From Spirochaetales bacterium (GTDB lineage Bacteria > Spirochaetota > Spirochaetia > DSM-27196 > PWMO01): a stretch of 36,459 nt of DNA. The position numbers and the translations under genes are program-made. Within the stretch, counting starts at the first letter, position 1, and each line of letters starts with the position of its first letter. Location of the stretch: contig SKLB01000329.1 of assembly GCA_007123465.1 (NCBI GenBank), positions 1 to 36,459 on the forward strand. Reading direction: 5' to 3'. Below, one piece after another: positions 9,823 to 17,370 of the stretch. The notes under the pieces are model-generated. The model ran no database searches and was not told the DNA's origin. It was given only the letters and a program-made list of their open reading frames with translations.

Positions 9823-11910
9823 TTATTGCGCTGCAAACAATGCGATCTGTTCCAGCGGGGCCGGGCGGGCGATCTCGTAGCCTTGAACATAATCCACGCC
9901 GATCTCGGCCAGCTGCTGTCTGACCGAATTAGAGGTCACAAATTCGGCAATTGTCTTCATACCCATGACGTGCCCGATGTTGTTGATTGCCTCCACCATC
10001 GCGAGGCTTATGGGGTCGGTATCAACGTCGCGTACAAAGGAACCATCGATCTTGAGATAGTCTACCGGCAGGTTCTTCAGGTAGGCAAACGATGTAAACC
10101 CGTTGCCAAAGTCATCGAGGGCAAACGAGACACCAATCTTGCGCAGACGGTTCATGAAGCCGACCGCGCGCGAAAGACTCTCGATGGCGGTGGTCTCGGT
10201 AACCTCAAAGCAGAACAGAGCGGGATCGACATCGGCGTCGCGGAATGCTCGCGTCACAAAATCCAGAAACGCTTCGTCTTTGACCGACGCGCCCGATATG
10301 TTGATGGCCAGCAGTGCCGAGTCGTGTTGCAGCGGCAGCGGACCCGCGGAGCGCAGATGGCGCAGCACGGAGTTGATCACCCAACGGTCAACAGACGGCA
10401 TCAGGTTGTAGCGCTCGGCAGCCGGTATGAAATCACCCGGGCTCACCATCGAGCCGTCGTCATCGATCAGGCGGATCAGGATCTCCTGTTTCAGTCCCAG
10501 GTTGCTCGCCAGCGGATGGATCGGCTGGGCGTAGAGCACAAAGCGGTCTTCTTCCAGTGCGCGGGTCAGACGGCTGATCCACTGCATTTCGCCGCGGCGC
10601 TTGAGAAACGTGTAATCGGCGGTTTCGTAGACCTTGACTGCGTTGCCGCCCTCTTCTTTGGCCAGGTAGCAGGCGTCGTCAGCGGCAGCAAGTACGGTAT
10701 AGATATCACTGTTGTGCGATGAAACCGGCACAACACCGATACTGGCGGTGATCTGGAACGTATTGTGCTGCCAGATGAACTTACGGTTGAGCACCTCACG
10801 CAGCTGGTAGGCAATCTGTTGTGCCTGTTGCAGGTCGGTGTCAACCAGCACCACTCCGTACTCATCACCGCCGAGGCGCCCTATGTAGTGGTCGCGGTGC
10901 ACGTTCTCCAGCAGAGCCCCCCCAATCTGGCGCAAAAGCTCGTCCCCGGCCAGGTGCCCACAGACGTCGTTGACCACCTTGAACTGATCCAGGTCAACGT
11001 AAATGAACACGTGATGGCGACCATCGTCGCGGCTGGTGCGGATTGTCTCTTCCAGGTGAGCAAAAAACTCGTCGCGATTGATAAGGCCGGTCAGAATATC
11101 GTGGCTCGCCTGATAGACAATGATGTCGGACATCTTCTTCAGATCGGTGACATCACGGAAAGCTATCGTACGGCCGTCAAAGTGATGCCGCGGGTGATTT
11201 CCGGGGCCGCGGATTGACGCGATAGTGCCGTCTACCTGGATACGCGCGCCCTGCTTGTTGTGCAGGTAGGCATCATCAAGGAAGACGGCGTTGTCGCTGT
11301 CATGGCTGCCGGTCGAAGAGGGCAGCTGAATCCGCAGTCCCGAATGCAGGTCAAAAATTTGAAAGATGTCGGCCAGCGCCAGGCCCTTGGCGTCCTTCTC
11401 GGTCCAGCCGGTGAGGCTTTCAGCAACTGGATTCATGAACTGGATGGTATCTTCACTGTCGCTGGCGATGATGGCGTCGGCAACGCTATTCAGGATCGAG
11501 GAGAGCCAACGCTCGTGGCGCCGAACTTCCATGTGCAGACGGCTCTTGTGCAGCGCCATGTCGATTGTGGTGTAGAGCTCGCGCTCCTTAAACGGCTTGA
11601 GCAAATAACCGAAGGGCTCAGCGGCTTTGGCGCGTTCGAGGGTGCGTTCATCGGCGTAGGCGGTCAGGAAAATCACCGGTATCCCCGACGAGTCGCGAAT
11701 AGTCTGGGCTGCGTCTATGCCATCCCCGTCTCCGGACAGCATGATATCCATCAGGATGATGTCGGGGTGCAATTCACCGGCGCGCTCGATGGCTTCAGCC
11801 GCGGTCAACGCAATAGCCGCCACGCGATAGCCGTAGTTCTCGAGCCGTCGCTGCAGGTCGATGGCGATTATGCGCTCATCCTCGACAATCAGTATCCGTT
11901 CGCCGCTCAT
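9823..11910 (-). CDS. response regulator with PAS, GGDEF and EAL domains (c-di-GMP turnover)
   Basis: This 695-residue protein has four domains. A receiver domain (1-120) has 'IVEDE', the phospho-acceptor Asp55 in 'ILMDIML' and 'LLKPFK'. A PAS domain (about 130-270) has 'ILNSVADAIIASDSEDTI'. A GGDEF domain (about 285-440) has the active site 'RLGGDEYGVV', preceded by 'HDILTGLINRDEF'. An EAL domain (about 450-695) reads 'QEILIRL' in place of EALLR. It keeps 'FEVTET', 'LDDFGNGFTSFAYLKNLP', 'LKIDGSFV' and 'VQGYEIARP', so most catalytic ligands are present. The predicted roles are diguanylate cyclase and/or phosphodiesterase controlled by phosphorylation. The cognate kinase is not adjacent. The start ATG at 11910 has GGTGGGAGA immediately upstream. 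Confidence 0.92.
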   Translation of the reverse strand: MSGERILIVEDERIIAIDLQRRLENYGYRVAAIALTAAEAIERAGELHPDIILMDIMLSGDGDGIDAAQTIRDSSGIPVIFLTAYADERTLERAKAAEPFGYLLKPFKERELYTTIDMALHKSRLHMEVRRHERWLSSILNSVADAIIASDSEDTIQFMNPVAESLTGWTEKDAKGLALADIFQIFDLHSGLRIQLPSSTGSHDSDNAVFLDDAYLHNKQGARIQVDGTIASIRGPGNHPRHHFDGRTIAFRDVTDLKKMSDIIVYQASHDILTGLINRDEFFAHLEETIRTSRDDGRHHVFIYVDLDQFKVVNDVCGHLAGDELLRQIGGALLENVHRDHYIGRLGGDEYGVVLVDTDLQQAQQIAYQLREVLNRKFIWQHNTFQITASIGVVPVSSHNSDIYTVLAAADDACYLAKEEGGNAVKVYETADYTFLKRRGEMQWISRLTRALEEDRFVLYAQPIHPLASNLGLKQEILIRLIDDDGSMVSPGDFIPAAERYNLMPSVDRWVINSVLRHLRSAGPLPLQHDSALLAINISGASVKDEAFLDFVTRAFRDADVDPALFCFEVTETTAIESLSRAVGFMNRLRKIGVSFALDDFGNGFTSFAYLKNLPVDYLKIDGSFVRDVDTDPISLAMVEAINNIGHVMGMKTIAEFVTSNSVRQQLAEIGVDYVQGYEIARPAPLEQIALFAAQ

Positions 11911-11979: not shown

Positions 11980-12444
11980 CTACAGTTTGAGAACTCTCTT
12001 CAATTGTAGCGGCTCGATGCGAAACGGTGCTCCCTTACCCTGCATGAAGTGGTACTTCTCGAACAGGTGCAGGCCGAGCTCGGAGTAGAGAATCTTCTCG
12101 CCGCTGGGCTCTGCGCCGGAAGTCAGCTGCACCTCGGCGTTGACTTTGCGGAATATCCCGTCTTCGAACGGGGACGGCAGAAAGCCGCGCGCCTCGCTGA
12201 CACGTACAATCCACTGGTTGTCCACGGTGACAGGTTCCTCCAACCCCTTGCGGCCCTCGGCCATCAGGTGCCGCATGCGCGCTGCCGCCTGTTCAAAACC
12301 AACACCAATGGCCTCCATTTCGGCTTCATCGTCGGCAATGATGTCAACGATCGGGCGCGTATCGTCGCCGAGGAACCCGTCCGCGGTGATCTCGCCGGGC
12401 TGCATATTGGCCTGCGCTTTGGTGAATTCCGGGGACATCTTCAT
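11980..12444 (-). CDS. uncharacterised soluble protein at the end of the nqr operon
   Basis: From the ATG at 12444 (MKMSPEFTKAQANMQPG) the protein is 154 residues. GAGGTG lies five bases upstream and the nqrF stop only 13 bases away. It is hydrophilic with no signal peptide, membrane helix or cysteine. An acidic N-terminal part ('VDIIADDEAEMEAIGVGFEQAAARMRHLM') is followed by a compact C-terminal half with 'ILYSELGLHLFEKYHFMQGKG' and a basic end. I do not recognise a family. Tight linkage to nqrF suggests a role linked to the Na+-NQR complex, for example assembly, regulation or a peripheral subunit, but no residue shows it. The longer track start overlaps nqrF and is rejected. Confidence 0.75.
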   Translation of the reverse strand: MKMSPEFTKAQANMQPGEITADGFLGDDTRPIVDIIADDEAEMEAIGVGFEQAAARMRHLMAEGRKGLEEPVTVDNQWIVRVSEARGFLPSPFEDGIFRKVNAEVQLTSGAEPSGEKILYSELGLHLFEKYHFMQGKGAPFRIEPLQLKRVLKL

Positions 12445-12457
12445 AACGGCACCTCGT

Positions 12458-13582
12458 TTAGGCAAACTTGTCGAAATAGATCTTATCGTCACTCATATCG
12501 TTTGAGCGCATTACATCCATACACGCATCCAACATACCCGGACTGCCGCACAGGTAGCCCTCTTTTGGTGCGTCGGCGGAAATCTTGCTCTTGAGGTACT
12601 TGTCCAGCACATCGGTGATCAGACCAGTTTCTCCTTGCCAATCGTCCTCGGGTTGGGGCTCGGAAAGTGCTGCTACAAAGTGAAAGCGTTCGTGTTCGTC
12701 CTGAAATTTCTGCATTTCTTCCAGGTAGAACAGGTCCTTCTTGGTACGCGCGCCAAAGAAATACCAGATATCACGCTCTTCCATCTTGTCCTTCTCGACA
12801 AAGTCGTAGAAGATCGACTTGAACGGCGCCATGCCCGATCCGCCGGCCACACAGATCATTGTAGCATCGGTGTCGCGAACGTAGAACTCGCCGAACGGCG
12901 CGATGATCTTCATCTTCTCGCCCTCTTTGAGGTGCTCGTGGACGTAGGTGGTAACGATGCCGCCGGGTACCAGACGGACCAGAAATTCAACATGGTTGTT
13001 GTCACTGGGTTTGGATGACATGGAGTAGGCGCGCTGCGTGCGTTCTTTGACCTTGGCGTACGGCGGAGTCTCAATCTGGCCGTACTGGCCGGCACGGAAG
13101 TCCACCGTCTGTCCCTCATCGAGCTTGAAGTAAACTTCCTTGATATCATGGGTGACATCGCGGATTCTCTCGACGGTTCCGGTGTACTGCTTGATCTTGA
13201 ACAGGTATTCGGGGATCTGGATATCAACGTCGCCCTTGATCTTCACCTGGCACGAGAGGCGTACGTTGTCATCAATCTGTTCTCTGGTGAGGTAGGGAAT
13301 TTCGGTCGGCAGATGCGGACCAATGTCGGACTCTACCTTGACCTTGCATTCACCGCAGCTGCCGCGGCCGCCGCACGCCGAGGGAATGAAGATCTGGTTC
13401 TCCGCCAGGGTTACCAGCATGTTGGCGCCGCCGGTAACGTCCAGTTTCTTGGAGCCGTCATTGACGTTGATCACGGCTTCGCCGTAGTTGTTGACAATCT
13501 TGTCGGTGACCGAGACCAGCGCGGCGAACGCTGCACTGAGGCTTGCAATTGCCATTGGGGCGATCAGAAACGCTAAGTCCAA
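12458..13582 (-). CDS. nqrF: Na+-translocating NADH:quinone reductase subunit F
   Basis: This 374-residue NqrF starts at TTG 13582 with AAGGAG seven bases upstream. An N-terminal membrane helix anchors it. A ferredoxin-like [2Fe-2S] domain follows, with 'SACGGRGSCGECKV' and a fourth Cys in 'VRLSCQV'. The FAD-binding motif is 'RAYSMSS', and the NAD-binding region contains 'CVAGGSGMAPFKSI' and 'GYLCGSPGMLDACMDVM'. The C-terminus ends 'YFDKFA', with the aromatic residue that stacks on FAD in this family. NqrF accepts hydride from NADH and starts the electron path that drives Na+ export. The N-terminus is shorter than in Vibrio (about 407 residues). Confidence 0.96.
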   Translation of the reverse strand: MDLAFLIAPMAIASLSAAFAALVSVTDKIVNNYGEAVINVNDGSKKLDVTGGANMLVTLAENQIFIPSACGGRGSCGECKVKVESDIGPHLPTEIPYLTREQIDDNVRLSCQVKIKGDVDIQIPEYLFKIKQYTGTVERIRDVTHDIKEVYFKLDEGQTVDFRAGQYGQIETPPYAKVKERTQRAYSMSSKPSDNNHVEFLVRLVPGGIVTTYVHEHLKEGEKMKIIAPFGEFYVRDTDATMICVAGGSGMAPFKSIFYDFVEKDKMEERDIWYFFGARTKKDLFYLEEMQKFQDEHERFHFVAALSEPQPEDDWQGETGLITDVLDKYLKSKISADAPKEGYLCGSPGMLDACMDVMRSNDMSDDKIYFDKFA

Positions 13583-13609
13583 TGTATTACTCCTTTCCTG
13601 TACGTCTGC

Positions 13610-14203
13610 TTATTGGACCTGAAGCAGGCCGGTGAAGCCGATAAACGCCATTGCCATAAACCCGATGGTGATAAAGGTCAGCCCGGCGCCCTGCAGACCG
13701 GCGGACACCTTGGACTTCTCGGTCTTCTTGCGGATAGCCGCCAGAGCCATGATCGCCAGCCACCACCCGAGCCCGGAACCCAAGCCGAAGACGGCAGACT
13801 GCAGGAAGCTGTACTGCCGGATCTCCATGAACAGTGAAACACCGAGAATGGCGCAGTTGACGGTGATCAACGGCAGGAAGATTCCCAGGTTCAGATAGAG
13901 GGTCTGCGAAACGCGGTCGATGATCATCTCCAGCATCTGCACCACCGAGGCGATCACGATGATAAAAATGATGAATCGCAGATAGACCAGATCCAGTGGA
14001 ATCAGAACGTAGTTCAGTACAACCCAGTTGATCGACGCCGTGAAGGTGAGTACCACCACCACTGCCATGCCGAGTCCGTTGGAAGAATTGATATCTTTGG
14101 AAATCGCAATAAAGGAACACATCCCCAGAAAGTTAGCCAGCAGGATGTTACTGGTGAAGATCGACGCAAAAAAGAGCGAAAACATCGGGATATCGGGTGC
14201 CAT
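13610..14203 (-). CDS. nqrE: Na+-NQR subunit E
   Basis: This 197-residue membrane protein of the NqrE/RnfA family has six helices. 'NILLANFLGMCSFIAIS' and 'PLITVNCAILGVSLF' contain the two half-helix cysteines that, with NqrD, ligate the intramembrane iron in characterised complexes. AAGGAGAG lies just before the ATG, and the nqrD stop is four bases upstream. It is assigned to NqrE rather than RnfA because the operon encodes NqrF and flavinylated NqrB/C rather than Rnf proteins. Confidence 0.95.
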   Translation of the reverse strand: MAPDIPMFSLFFASIFTSNILLANFLGMCSFIAISKDINSSNGLGMAVVVVLTFTASINWVVLNYVLIPLDLVYLRFIIFIIVIASVVQMLEMIIDRVSQTLYLNLGIFLPLITVNCAILGVSLFMEIRQYSFLQSAVFGLGSGLGWWLAIMALAAIRKKTEKSKVSAGLQGAGLTFITIGFMAMAFIGFTGLLQVQ

Positions 14204-14206
14204 ATC

Positions 14207-14836
14207 TTACTCTCCTTCCAGGACGGGCTCGCCTTGACGATGCATCAGGTACTTGCCGCCCCAGGTGATGACACCGATCAGGAAGAACGCGCTCGGGGGC
14301 ATCACCATGATGATCCAGGGCTCAAATCCTGCCGGCAGGACCTGGAAGCCGAACAGCGCGCCAAAGCCGAGCAGTTCGCGTACGAGCGCGATTGACAGCA
14401 GCACTCCCATGTATCCCATGCCCGAAGTGATACCGTCCCACAGTGACAGCAGCGGCGGATTACTCTGGGCAAACGCCTCGGCGCGGCCCATGATGATGCA
14501 GTTGGTGATGATCAGTCCAACGTAGGGACCGAGGTTGCGGCTGATCTCGGGCAGATAGGCGCGCAACACGATGTCAACAATAATCACGTAGAACGCGATG
14601 ATCAGAGTTTGCACCACCATGCGCACCTTACGCGGGATCAGGCTCTTGATTATGGCAACGGTGAGATTGGACATCCCGGTTACAAAAACAACCCCGAGCG
14701 TCATGATCATGGTGTTGGAGAGCAGATTGGTGACTGCAAGCGCCGAGCAGATACCGAGAATCTGCATGAAGATCGGATTTGCGGTCCACATGTTCTGCTT
14801 GAGAATCTGTCCGGGTTGTTTTGCGCTATCGCTCAT
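14207..14836 (-). CDS. nqrD: Na+-NQR subunit D
   Basis: This 209-residue membrane protein of the NqrD/RnfE family carries 'ANPIFMQILGICSALAVTN' and 'VGLIITNCIIMGRAEAFA', again with one cysteine in each half-helix for the iron site shared with NqrE. Six helices are predicted. The ATG at 14836 overlaps the nqrC stop (ATGA) and has GAGGTGAGG upstream. Length is normal. Confidence 0.95.
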   Translation of the reverse strand: MSDSAKQPGQILKQNMWTANPIFMQILGICSALAVTNLLSNTMIMTLGVVFVTGMSNLTVAIIKSLIPRKVRMVVQTLIIAFYVIIVDIVLRAYLPEISRNLGPYVGLIITNCIIMGRAEAFAQSNPPLLSLWDGITSGMGYMGVLLSIALVRELLGFGALFGFQVLPAGFEPWIIMVMPPSAFFLIGVITWGGKYLMHRQGEPVLEGE

Positions 14837-15432
14837 GCCTCACCTCTCAGCGCGTCTCGCAGACGTTCAAACTCACGGTTCAGAATTGTCTCTATGGCAT
14901 TGGATGTACCGGTTGCCCCGGTAATTGCGTTGATGCGGCCGTCGACCCCTTCGGTGTCTCCCTCACGGATGACATCGATCTTTCCGTCGTCAAGCGGTTT
15001 GTCACGGAACTGCCGCTTGAACTCCGGCTCATCCACGCGGCCTCCCAGTCCCGGAGTTTCGTTGTGATCGATGATTTCCAGTGCGACGGTACGGCTTACG
15101 TCCTCGTTTACGCCTACCACGCCGTTGATGGTGCCCCATAAACCGCTGCCGGCAAAAATTCTGGCGTAGAGCACCTCGTCGTCTCGGTCTATGCGGTAGA
15201 GCGTCATGCCGTTGCGCTCAACGGTTTCGATGTCATCGAACAGTTGCAGCACTTCCTGGTCGTCCTGGTAGTCAATGGCCAGCGCACTCAGTACCGACCG
15301 TTGCAGGCGCAACTGCTGGTTAAGCTGTACCTGTTCGCGGGTAGCCTGATGGGTCAGCGAGAGCAGGAAGACAAACGCAAAACAGACGATGAAAGAAAAA
15401 ACAACGGTATAGGGCAGACTCTGTTTGTTCAC
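14833..15432 (-). CDS. nqrC: Na+-NQR subunit C (covalent FMN)
   Basis: This 199-residue protein has one N-terminal helix (about 8-28) and a periplasmic/extracytoplasmic FMN-binding domain. 'ITGATGTSNAIE' matches the S/T-G-A-T-x-T-S flavinylation motif, whose Thr carries FMN through a phosphoester bond made by ApbE. 'GLWGTINGVVGV' and 'DHNETPGLGGRV' are conserved NqrC/RnfG segments. The start is GTG at 15432, overlapping the nqrB stop, with a G-rich ribosome binding site. It is shorter than Vibrio NqrC (about 257 residues). No apbE gene is visible here. Confidence 0.93.
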   Translation of the reverse strand: MNKQSLPYTVVFSFIVCFAFVFLLSLTHQATREQVQLNQQLRLQRSVLSALAIDYQDDQEVLQLFDDIETVERNGMTLYRIDRDDEVLYARIFAGSGLWGTINGVVGVNEDVSRTVALEIIDHNETPGLGGRVDEPEFKRQFRDKPLDDGKIDVIREGDTEGVDGRINAITGATGTSNAIETILNREFERLRDALRGEA

Positions 15433-16403
15433 GCCGTTCCCCCCTTGGCGCCGGGTTGTTTCCCGGCCGGTGCATTCGGGTTGGCACTCTTTTTCTTGGT
15501 GGGCTTGGGGATTATCTCGTCCAGCAGCGAGGCAAAGACGTTACCCATCAGGATACCGAAGCTGGTGCCTTCGGGAAATTGGCCGAGGTTGCGGATGGTA
15601 ATGCTGATTGTGCCGATCAGCAGGCCGTAGACCCACTGGGCGCGCGGGTTGTTGGGCGCGCTGACCGGATCGGTGGACATGAAGACTGCCACAAACAGAA
15701 TGCTCCCCGAGAGCATGCCGTATTCTGGCGGATAGTTGGGCGTCAAGCCGCTGTAGTAGAACGCGATCATCAGAGCTCCGGCGCCCAGCAGGGTAGAGAC
15801 AATCAGACGCCACTGCGCGGTCTTGGTAGCCACCAGATATATTCCGGCCAGGATAATCAGCACCGCCGAGGTTTCACCCATCGAGCCGCCGGTGAAACCC
15901 AGCAGTATGTCGAGCAACTCCGGCCTGCTGCCGTTGGCCAGCATCGCCAGCGGGCTTGCCGCCGACAGCGCGTCTACGCCGGCCTCGCCGGCAGTACCAA
16001 ACGCTCCGGGAACCATGAATCCGTAGGCAAAAAGCGACGGGAAGCTGATCCATACAAAGATTCTGCCCGATATCGCGGGGTTGAAGATGTTGCGGCCAAA
16101 ACCGCCATAGACCTCTTTGCCGAAGAAAACACCAAAGACGATCCCGATTGCGGCTATCCACAGCGGAATTGCCGGCGGGACAATCAGAACAAAGAGCATA
16201 CAGGTAACCAGCACCGCTTCGCTGACCTTCTTGCCGCGCGATTTTTCCATCACATACTCGGTGAGTATGCCCAGGGTAAAAACCACCGCCGACAGGGCAA
16301 TCACTCTCCATCCGTACCTATAGAGGGAGAACAGATAAATCGGGATCAGCGAATAGACCACTCTGCGCATGATCGGCTGTTTAATAAACACGTCTTTTAA
16401 CAC
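15429..16403 (-). CDS. nqrB: Na+-NQR subunit B (covalent FMN, quinone site)
   Basis: This 324-residue membrane protein of the NqrB/RnfD family starts at a GTG (16403) preceded by GGGAGG. 'GGFGRNIFNPAISGRIF' and 'GGSMGETSAVLI' are visible; the Thr in GETS is the covalent FMN site of NqrB. 'FMSTDPVSAPNNPRAQ' is also typical. It lacks the roughly 80-residue N-terminal region found in Vibrio NqrB, and its C-terminus is a basic, Pro/Gly-rich tail. It is the first gene of the operon. No nqrA precedes it, although nqrA is the usual first gene in gammaproteobacteria. Confidence 0.93.
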   Translation of the reverse strand: MLKDVFIKQPIMRRVVYSLIPIYLFSLYRYGWRVIALSAVVFTLGILTEYVMEKSRGKKVSEAVLVTCMLFVLIVPPAIPLWIAAIGIVFGVFFGKEVYGGFGRNIFNPAISGRIFVWISFPSLFAYGFMVPGAFGTAGEAGVDALSAASPLAMLANGSRPELLDILLGFTGGSMGETSAVLIILAGIYLVATKTAQWRLIVSTLLGAGALMIAFYYSGLTPNYPPEYGMLSGSILFVAVFMSTDPVSAPNNPRAQWVYGLLIGTISITIRNLGQFPEGTSFGILMGNVFASLLDEIIPKPTKKKSANPNAPAGKQPGAKGGTA

Positions 16404-16465
16404 GGCGCCTCCCTCAAGACGACTAAGTTTTATCTATATATAGTTACTTTATTATCCTATGCGGC

Positions 16466-16471
16466 ATTATA
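16466..16471 (-). promoter_or_regulatory. candidate -10 box for the nqr operon
   Basis: A perfect TATAAT (minus strand, 16471 down to 16466) lies about 63 bases before the nqrB start in an AT-rich block. No good -35 hexamer is found at 16-18 bases, so it may need an activator or be used by another sigma factor. The tract between the box and the ribosome binding site includes the palindromic run TATATATA. Confidence 0.45.
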
Positions 16472-16524
16472 CTAAGTTGGCGTTCAAAAGTACAGTCTAA
16501 ACAGCGGTATCCGCGATTAATTCT

Positions 16525-16559
16525 TATAATAGAGGTCAGCTTTGCGCGCCCCGCGGGCG
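16525..16559 (+). promoter_or_regulatory. plus-strand TATAAT followed by GC hairpin, upstream of SDR gene
   Basis: TATAAT at 16525-16530 faces the SDR gene, about 105 bases before its ATG. It is followed at 16545-16559 by GCGCCC-CGC-GGGCGC, a six-base-pair hairpin that would lie in the 5' leader. The -35 position is weak. No T tract follows, so a terminator is unlikely. The regulatory meaning is unknown. Confidence 0.35.
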
Positions 16560-16635
16560 CTCCGCGCAACCTGACTGCCGGCGGCTTGAAAAATGGCGCC
16601 GAATCGGTACAGTAGAGCGCAGGAGTACAGCAGAT

Positions 16636-17370
16636 ATGATGCGGCGTACGATGCAGGGACGAGTGGTATTGGTCAGCGGCGCCAGCGGAGGAATCGGAGC
16701 TGCGATAGCTGCGGCGTTTGCCGCCAGAGGCGCATCGCTGATGCTCACCGGACGCTCACAGGAGCGCCTGGACGAGGTTGCAGAAGACCTGCGCCAGCGT
16801 TTTGCCTTGATGGTCAACACCGTGCGTGCCGATCTTGCCGACCCCGCTGCGCCGGCGCGGGTCATCGATGCGCTGCGTGCCGCGTACAACCGGCTCGACG
16901 TTCTGGTCAACAACGCCGGGGTGGCGTTGCCAGGGCCGTTGTGCCGGACCAGCGTCGAGCAGTGGGATCTTCATATGGCGGTCAACGCCCGCGCGCCGAT
17001 GCTGCTCAGCTCGCAGGCACTCGAGCTGCTGCAACACTCTGATGACGCTGTCATCGTCAATATCGGCTCGGTTGTGGCCCACAAGGGCTACGCAGGCCAG
17101 GGCGCCTACAGCGCTTCAAAACACGCGCTGCTCGGCCTGACCCGGGTGCTGGCCAAAGAGCTGCAGCAGCTCGGCGTGCGCGTCCACCTGGTCTCTCCTG
17201 GCGGCGTTGCGACCCCGATGATCAGCGAGATGCGCCCGGATATCGATGTTTCAGAACTCATGCAACCCGAAGACGTTGCCGAGGCGGTTGTATTTGTGGC
17301 GCTGGCGCGCGGTAACGCACTCGTAGACGAGATCGAACTGCGACGCCGCTCCAGTGAGCCGTGGAAATAA
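16636..17370 (+). CDS. short-chain dehydrogenase/reductase
   Basis: This 244-residue classical SDR has the NAD(P)-binding 'VSGASGGIGAA' near residue 13. The structural 'LVNNAGVA' and the catalytic 'YSASKHALLG' (Tyr-x3-Lys) follow, with the catalytic Ser in 'NIGSVVAHKG' and 'VSPGGVATPM' after the active site. An Arg in 'TGRSQERL' at the end of beta-2 favours NADPH. The substrate cannot be told from sequence. AGGAG at 16621 supports the first ATG. It may be co-transcribed with the AI-2E-family gene 69 bases downstream. Confidence 0.92.
   Translation: MMRRTMQGRVVLVSGASGGIGAAIAAAFAARGASLMLTGRSQERLDEVAEDLRQRFALMVNTVRADLADPAAPARVIDALRAAYNRLDVLVNNAGVALPGPLCRTSVEQWDLHMAVNARAPMLLSSQALELLQHSDDAVIVNIGSVVAHKGYAGQGAYSASKHALLGLTRVLAKELQQLGVRVHLVSPGGVATPMISEMRPDIDVSELMQPEDVAEAVVFVALARGNALVDEIELRRRSSEPWK

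Follow-up and report, generated by a model that had tools for sequence, protein, structure and literature searches.

A candidate NqrA-less subclass of the NQR family with a proposed sixth protein in mostly anaerobic bacteria

We analysed a 36,459-nucleotide stretch of a Spirochaetales bacterium (GenBank assembly GCA_007123465.1, contig SKLB01000329.1, positions 1 to 36,459; hereafter, the window), whose minus strand carries an nqrBCDEF operon that lacks nqrA and ends in a gene for a soluble protein of 154 residues, X154. The encoded system is a variant of the Na+-translocating NADH:quinone oxidoreductase (Na+-NQR) that fails two defining features of the canonical enzyme, NqrA and the quinone site, and is not to be called an ordinary Na+-NQR. 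The bacteria that carry it are for the most part anaerobes, with spirochaetes as the main group, and in them the linkage of X154 to nqrF is near-obligate; X154 is not a passenger. With about even confidence, we read the system as an ion-pumping NADH dehydrogenase with six subunits that belongs to the Rnf/Nqr superfamily and represents an NQR subclass without NqrA, in which X154 would be the dedicated sixth protein and would shape a different electron exit.

Organization of the operon

The six genes form one tight block in the order nqrB-C-D-E-F-X154, from position 16403 down to 11980. The features are as follows (FMN, flavin mononucleotide; FAD, flavin adenine dinucleotide):

nqrB, 15429..16403, minus strand: 324 residues; GTG start with GGAGG upstream; Pfam NQR2_RnfD_RnfE at 1.5e-80, NCBIfam nqrB below its cut-off
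nqrC, 14833..15432, minus strand: 199 residues, short; FMN-binding domain (Pfam FMN_bind, 4.2e-14) and flavinylation motif ITGATGTS
nqrD, 14207..14836, minus strand: 209 residues; cluster cysteines in GICS and TNCI; NCBIfam nqrD 242.7 bits, above the PRK09292 cut-off
nqrE, 13610..14203, minus strand: 197 residues; cluster cysteines in GMCS and VNCA; NCBIfam nqrE 227.6 bits, just below the cut-off
nqrF, 12458..13582, minus strand: 374 residues; TTG start; N-terminal hydrophobic segment, four-cysteine [2Fe-2S], FAD and NADH domains; NCBIfam nqrF 296.7 bits (cut-off 295)
X154, 11980..12444, minus strand: soluble, 154 residues; proposed sixth subunit of an NqrA-less complex
leader of 232 bases, 16404..16635, minus strand: between nqrB and the divergent SDR gene; site of nqrA in the canonical operon
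SDR gene, 16636-17370, plus strand: divergent from nqrB

The B/C and C/D junctions are 4-base overlaps, and 13 bases separate nqrF from X154. A sequence-only reading of the window had described an nqrBCDEF operon without nqrA that opens with nqrB after a clear gap. The open reading frames and families agree with this description, the gap being the 232-base leader in front of the SDR gene. nqrA was not found in the leader, and no NqrA or RnfC homologue was found in the whole window. No consensus promoter rose above chance in the leader, a terminator scan likewise gave nothing above chance, and Rfam gave no match. The curated NCBIfam nqr cut-offs were passed by NqrF and NqrD and missed by NqrB, NqrC and NqrE; the Fer2, FAD and NADH domains of NqrF were identified by Pfam, NCBIfam and alignment to Vibrio NqrF. 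For X154, the mechanical open reading frame comprises 170 residues. The 154-residue version begins at the ATG at 12444 with GAGGTG in front, a start backed by 24 relatives, all of which open with Met-Lys.

X154 is linked to nqrF across several phyla

A genome-wide scan for X154 returned 80 loci, 77 of them with any sequence upstream of X154. In all 77, nqrF immediately precedes X154, and the full B-C-D-E-F-X order is present wherever the contig is long enough; the same order was found in 16 long loci of relatives, while the genes flanking the block differ among loci. A further 20 loci, drawn mainly from the most divergent ones in the class, included 19 in which X154 is linked to nqr. The gene order of the window, found again in relatives that have room for it, is thus more than a chance arrangement.

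The hosts belong to Spirochaetota, to Thermotogota (Marinitoga, Thermosipho, Fervidobacterium, Petrotoga) and to Fusobacteriota (Propionigenium maris), with further loci in single metagenome-assembled genomes (MAGs) labelled Lentisphaerae, PVC group, Mcinerneyibacteriota and Sumerlaeota. The annotated record of Ilyobacter polytropus holds the same block, with X154 listed as a 'hypothetical protein' (WP_013388434.1). The closest relative of the window copy, 95% identical, comes from 'Spirochaetaceae bacterium GEM2.Bin48'. The only unlinked copy seen is a lone paralogue of 176 residues (L168:6233-6763) that stands off nqr and has a PF12843 (QSregVF_b) gene and a HAD hydrolase gene as neighbours.

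NqrA is absent from genomes with X154

The window's own genome is a spirochaete MAG of 75.6% completeness, in which a search for nqrA gave no match to the NqrA model. Because this genome is incomplete, the relatives weigh more in the question of nqrA. Among 61 genomes (its own and relatives), 49 carry X154, and NqrA exceeded the curated cut-off in just one, which is without X154. Single-contig genomes with the operon (G007, G011 and G052) showed weak or no matches to the NqrA model; the regions examined in G007 and G011 hold complete or partial rnf clusters, and the weak matches there are therefore RnfC-like. In an evenly drawn sample of 148 Spirochaetia genomes (the class sample), X154 was present in 72 and canonical NqrA in 3, with an overlap of 0. 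No canonical NqrA was found in 15 genomes behind named loci, and no NqrA or RnfC homologue lies inside 118 X154 loci (1.69 Mb). A count of nqrF by TIGR01941 at E<=1e-60 was dropped because six-frame searching scores X-type NqrF below this threshold.

Seven of the 72 X154 genomes of the class also hold a distant NqrA homologue, on a different contig from X154. The NqrA homologues that we examined (L017-L020, L187) keep 4Fe-4S motifs and, where their neighbours are readable, sit with nqr genes of their own. The suggestion that nqrA lies elsewhere, as in Chlamydia, is thus refuted as far as the genomes allow (own genome, three closed genomes, 118 loci). We looked for a normal nqrA elsewhere in combination with X154 homologues mainly away from nqr, and found no such combination.

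As a separate observation, the homologues at L017, L018, L019, L020 (L137-L140) and L187 carry two CxxCxxxCP [4Fe-4S] motifs each, are intermediate between RnfC and NqrA in appearance and, in the tree described below, arise close to the base of its NQR side. At L138 and L140, such a homologue stands with nqrCDEF/nqrBCDEF, without X154 in the stretch examined.

The redox path is retained while the NqrB quinone site is altered

The cofactor ligands of the canonical path are present in the X-type complex. Alignment to Vibrio NqrF showed that the four [2Fe-2S] cysteines are kept. In 72 aligned sequences, the four intramembrane cluster cysteines of NqrD and NqrE, two each (GICS/TNC, GmCS/VNC), and the iTGAt.Ts motif of NqrC are conserved. 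All 74 X-type NqrBs retain the Thr/Ser of the FMN site and the riboflavin Asp (Vibrio D346). The FMN-site residue (Vibrio T236) is Ser in the window (DALSAAS) and in two other X-type NqrBs, and Thr in the other 71. ApbE, the enzyme that attaches the FMNs, was found in 16 of 16 genomes tested.

The sequence-only reading was right that NqrB and NqrC are truncated: the window NqrB has 324 residues against 415 in Vibrio and is without the N-terminal AH-I/AH-II region of about 50 residues, and NqrC has 199 against 243-267 in the canonical NqrCs compared. In 74 of 74 X-type NqrBs, only 0-13 residues precede Vibrio position 54, compared to 52-53 in canonical NqrBs, and the Phe159 position is V/L/I/S in all 74 versus F in 4/4 canonical sequences. 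The inhibitor-binding residue Glu157 is retained in 67/74. In the Vibrio enzyme, ubiquinone lies at the rim of NqrB, where the N-terminal amphipathic helices (AH) close over it via L26/A29/L33 of AH-II, together with F159/G141/L138 (PMC10643135). Inhibitors bind the same N-terminal region of NqrB in Vibrio (PMC9325719), and V. cholerae NqrA has no direct function assigned (PMC12174285). Since the ligands are kept and the AH helices, Phe159 and NqrA are gone, we conclude that the riboflavin path is intact and that the usual quinone exit is missing together with NqrA.

The X-type complexes form one clade

A tree of concatenated NqrB-D-E, calculated by a quick search and supported by the Shimodaira-Hasegawa-like approximate likelihood ratio test (SH-aLRT) without bootstrap, included canonical NQR, alphaproteobacterial NQR, the hybrids with [4Fe-4S]-NqrA, and RNF. 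A branch with SH-aLRT 100 set apart all 31 X-type rows, which lay outside both canonical NQR and RNF; the RNF rows formed a separate side of a branch, also with SH-aLRT 100. A single clade across phyla indicates that the subclass is either old or was transferred between phyla. NqrA may have been lost or never gained, both of which are compatible with the tree.

The Na+-NQR of Vibrio cholerae (NqrABCDEF) shares with the X-type complex the FAD and 2Fe-2S of NqrF, the NqrD/E cluster cysteines, the NqrC FMN and the FMN and riboflavin sites of NqrB, whereas the X-type lacks NqrA, has an NqrB without AH-I/AH-II and Phe159 and a short NqrC, adds X154 and forms a separate clade. The RNF complex (RnfABCDGE) has a homologous membrane core, and the lengths of X-type NqrB and NqrC are near those of RnfD and RnfG. 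Unlike RNF, however, the X-type loci are without RnfC, their sixth redox subunit is NqrF and not RnfB, and they group with NQR. The operons with NqrA-like [4Fe-4S] proteins (e.g., L138, L140) are likewise NqrF-bearing, some of them in the same genomes, but keep an NqrA/RnfC homologue.

An nqrBCDEF set without NqrA has been reported for Pseudothermotoga thermarum, P. lettingae and Clostridium ultunense, where the acceptor is called unknown (PMC4148951, PMC5924567) and, for C. ultunense, one more negative than quinone is suggested (PMC5924567). NqrBCDEF is also listed for 'Ca. Izimaplasma' ZiA1 (PMC6256511). The passages on NqrBCDEF examined in these three papers name no sixth gene. The Thermotogota in which we found X154 are of genera other than Pseudothermotoga. 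Among the open-licence papers searched, we found none that mentions X154, the loss of the NqrB helices or the clade, and X154 and the NqrA-less subclass appear to be undescribed there.

X154 is a conserved protein without a recognised family

Over 24 representatives, X154 has a mean column identity of 64%, with invariant GFLG, RG.L..PF, H and F positions. It had been described from the window as a cysteine-free soluble protein of unknown family. The length and the lack of a family stand; the absence of cysteine is specific to the window copy, as some relatives have cysteines (e.g., PCPF in L028), and is not a family trait. Comparison with Pfam, NCBIfam, PHROGs and PDB sequences gave no family match. 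The AlphaFold2 model is confident (mean predicted local distance difference test score 94.7) and matched no PDB fold. Membership in a known family was rejected, as sequence and fold searches were all negative. No relative of X154 was found in viral contigs and phages. The only fold matches of the model were uncharacterised giant-virus proteins of about 300 residues (Satyrvirus, Hyperionvirus, Catovirus, Terrestrivirus), with E-values down to 1.8e-5 and about 14% identity, which we regard as a lead only.

Quinone synthesis in X154 genomes

MenD exceeded the cut-off in three genomes of the class sample, the same three that encode canonical NqrA and all of one family, and in 0/72 X154 genomes. 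The futalosine marker PF02621 (MqnA family) gave borderline matches only, in 2/15 X154 genomes, with a model that also matches Thermotoga maritima. Near ApbE, several X154 spirochaetes (L132, L134, L199, L203, L204, L207) hold some or all of an NDH-2-like reductase and FMN_bind, NusG domain II and HepI proteins, neighbourhoods that resemble a flavin-based extracellular electron transfer cluster.

Proposed mechanism and alternatives

By analogy with Vibrio, electrons would pass from NADH to NqrF (FAD, 2Fe-2S), then to the 2Fe-2S cluster of NqrD/E, the NqrC FMN, the NqrB FMN and finally the NqrB riboflavin on the cytoplasmic side, and this route would drive export of Na+ (or H+). X154 may occupy the docking place of NqrA or RnfC on the cytoplasmic side of NqrB and form an exit site, from which the riboflavin electrons would leave for an acceptor that is not the usual ubiquinone/menaquinone pool. 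The most likely role of X154 is to stand in for NqrA as the dedicated cytoplasmic subunit; we infer its docking site and stoichiometry, as well as the acceptor and the pumped ion. More tentatively, X154 could be the output subunit of a Na+-pumping NADH dehydrogenase that uses no membrane quinone. In organisms without quinone head-group synthesis of their own, it would hand electrons from the NqrB riboflavin to an acceptor that is soluble or of some other kind not yet recognised. If so, anaerobes would have an ion pump of the respiratory type that works apart from the quinone pool.

The earlier proposal that the complex works without NqrA and uses X154 as a subunit or assembly factor is strongly favoured by the linkage, the single clade and the absence of the NqrB clamp; the physical membership of X154 in the complex and its exact role are what we infer, and several results weigh against the replacement of NqrA by X154. 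Co-variation analysis for placing X154 (85 paired sequences, effective number 64) lacked power and gave no signal, the known NqrD-NqrE contact included. X154 has no recognisable cofactor site or conserved cysteine, and its derivation from a degenerate NqrA/RnfC was rejected (hhalign probability 0.2%, no profile similarity). One of the 20 further loci, that of the L168 paralogue, is an exception to the linkage, a second X154 copy in a genome that also holds a linked copy. G141 was dropped as a diagnostic quinone-site residue, as Leu also occurs there in 2/4 canonical NqrBs. The split between NqrA with MenD and X154 is suggestive; as it involves three genomes from a single family, it does not reach significance by itself. 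A UbiA prenyltransferase is present in 15/16 genomes, and the six scanned resemble MenA. We therefore dropped the claim that the organisms are quinone-free, despite the lack of MenD above the cut-off; together with the extracellular electron transfer parts, the MenA-like enzymes make naphthoquinone salvage possible.

On these grounds, the complex might still reduce a quinone (e.g., demethylmenaquinone from scavenged 1,4-dihydroxy-2-naphthoate), with X154 as a lid of the quinone site in place of NqrA and the NqrB helices. The MenA-like enzymes, the NDH-2-like, ApbE, FMN_bind, NusG_II and HepI parts in several genomes and the retained Glu157 speak for this; we consider it unlikely, given the missing MenD, MqnA matches that are borderline at most, and the loss of the AH-II residues and Phe159. 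It is rather doubtful, too, that X154 serves the NqrA-less complex as a dedicated factor for assembly or maturation and not as a structural subunit. The model for such a factor is NqrM, a maturation factor for the intramembrane 2Fe-2S cluster with a membrane anchor and conserved cysteines. In the Klebsiella operon, nqrM directly follows nqrF, and in Leisingera it comes a short way after nqrF, a placement comparable to that of X154, which is small, soluble and without cofactor motifs. However, X154 has neither the membrane anchor nor the conserved cysteines of NqrM, and an assembly role alone would not account for NqrA and the NqrB N-terminus being missing together.

Two further explanations are very improbable. 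An nqrA encoded elsewhere could assemble in trans, as the incomplete genome of the window and the seven X154 genomes with an NqrA homologue on another contig would allow, but closed genomes with the operon show nothing beyond RnfC-level NqrA matches, the homologues examined retain 4Fe-4S motifs and, where the neighbourhood can be read, form part of nqr operons of their own, and the NqrB part that adjoins NqrA is missing. The lone paralogue would suit an X154 that is an unrelated passenger co-transcribed by chance, an idea that is hard to reconcile with linkage in every locus with room, across several phyla and amid differing flanking genes.

A widespread clade without NqrA and the NqrB quinone helices, yet with the rest of the path and X154, amounts to a natural experiment on the purpose of NqrA and the quinone site. 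X154 is also a concrete candidate gene for the acceptor puzzle in Pseudothermotoga and C. ultunense. The findings suggest that spirochaetes, Thermotogota and fusobacteria have a further energy-conserving enzyme, which automatic annotation breaks into RnfD, FMN-binding and hypothetical proteins.

Neighbouring genes and a further NQR variant

A response regulator-PAS-GGDEF-EAL gene (9823-11910, minus strand) begins 70 bases past X154 in the window, and many relatives (L002, L035, L036, L038-L041) likewise have a homologue of it after X154. Upstream of the operon in L028, L036, L037, L038, L039 and L040, we noted by eye look-alikes of E1 alpha, E1 beta and E2 of pyruvate/acetoin dehydrogenase, which are NADH producers. 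A separate odd NQR variant was seen in alphaproteobacterial plasmid nqrABCDEF operons (L160, L161, L166), where NqrB has 257-260 residues and an FMN-attachment motif that is not alignable, and where a divergent cytochrome c gene, annotated as cytochrome c3 family in two of the three, adjoins nqr.

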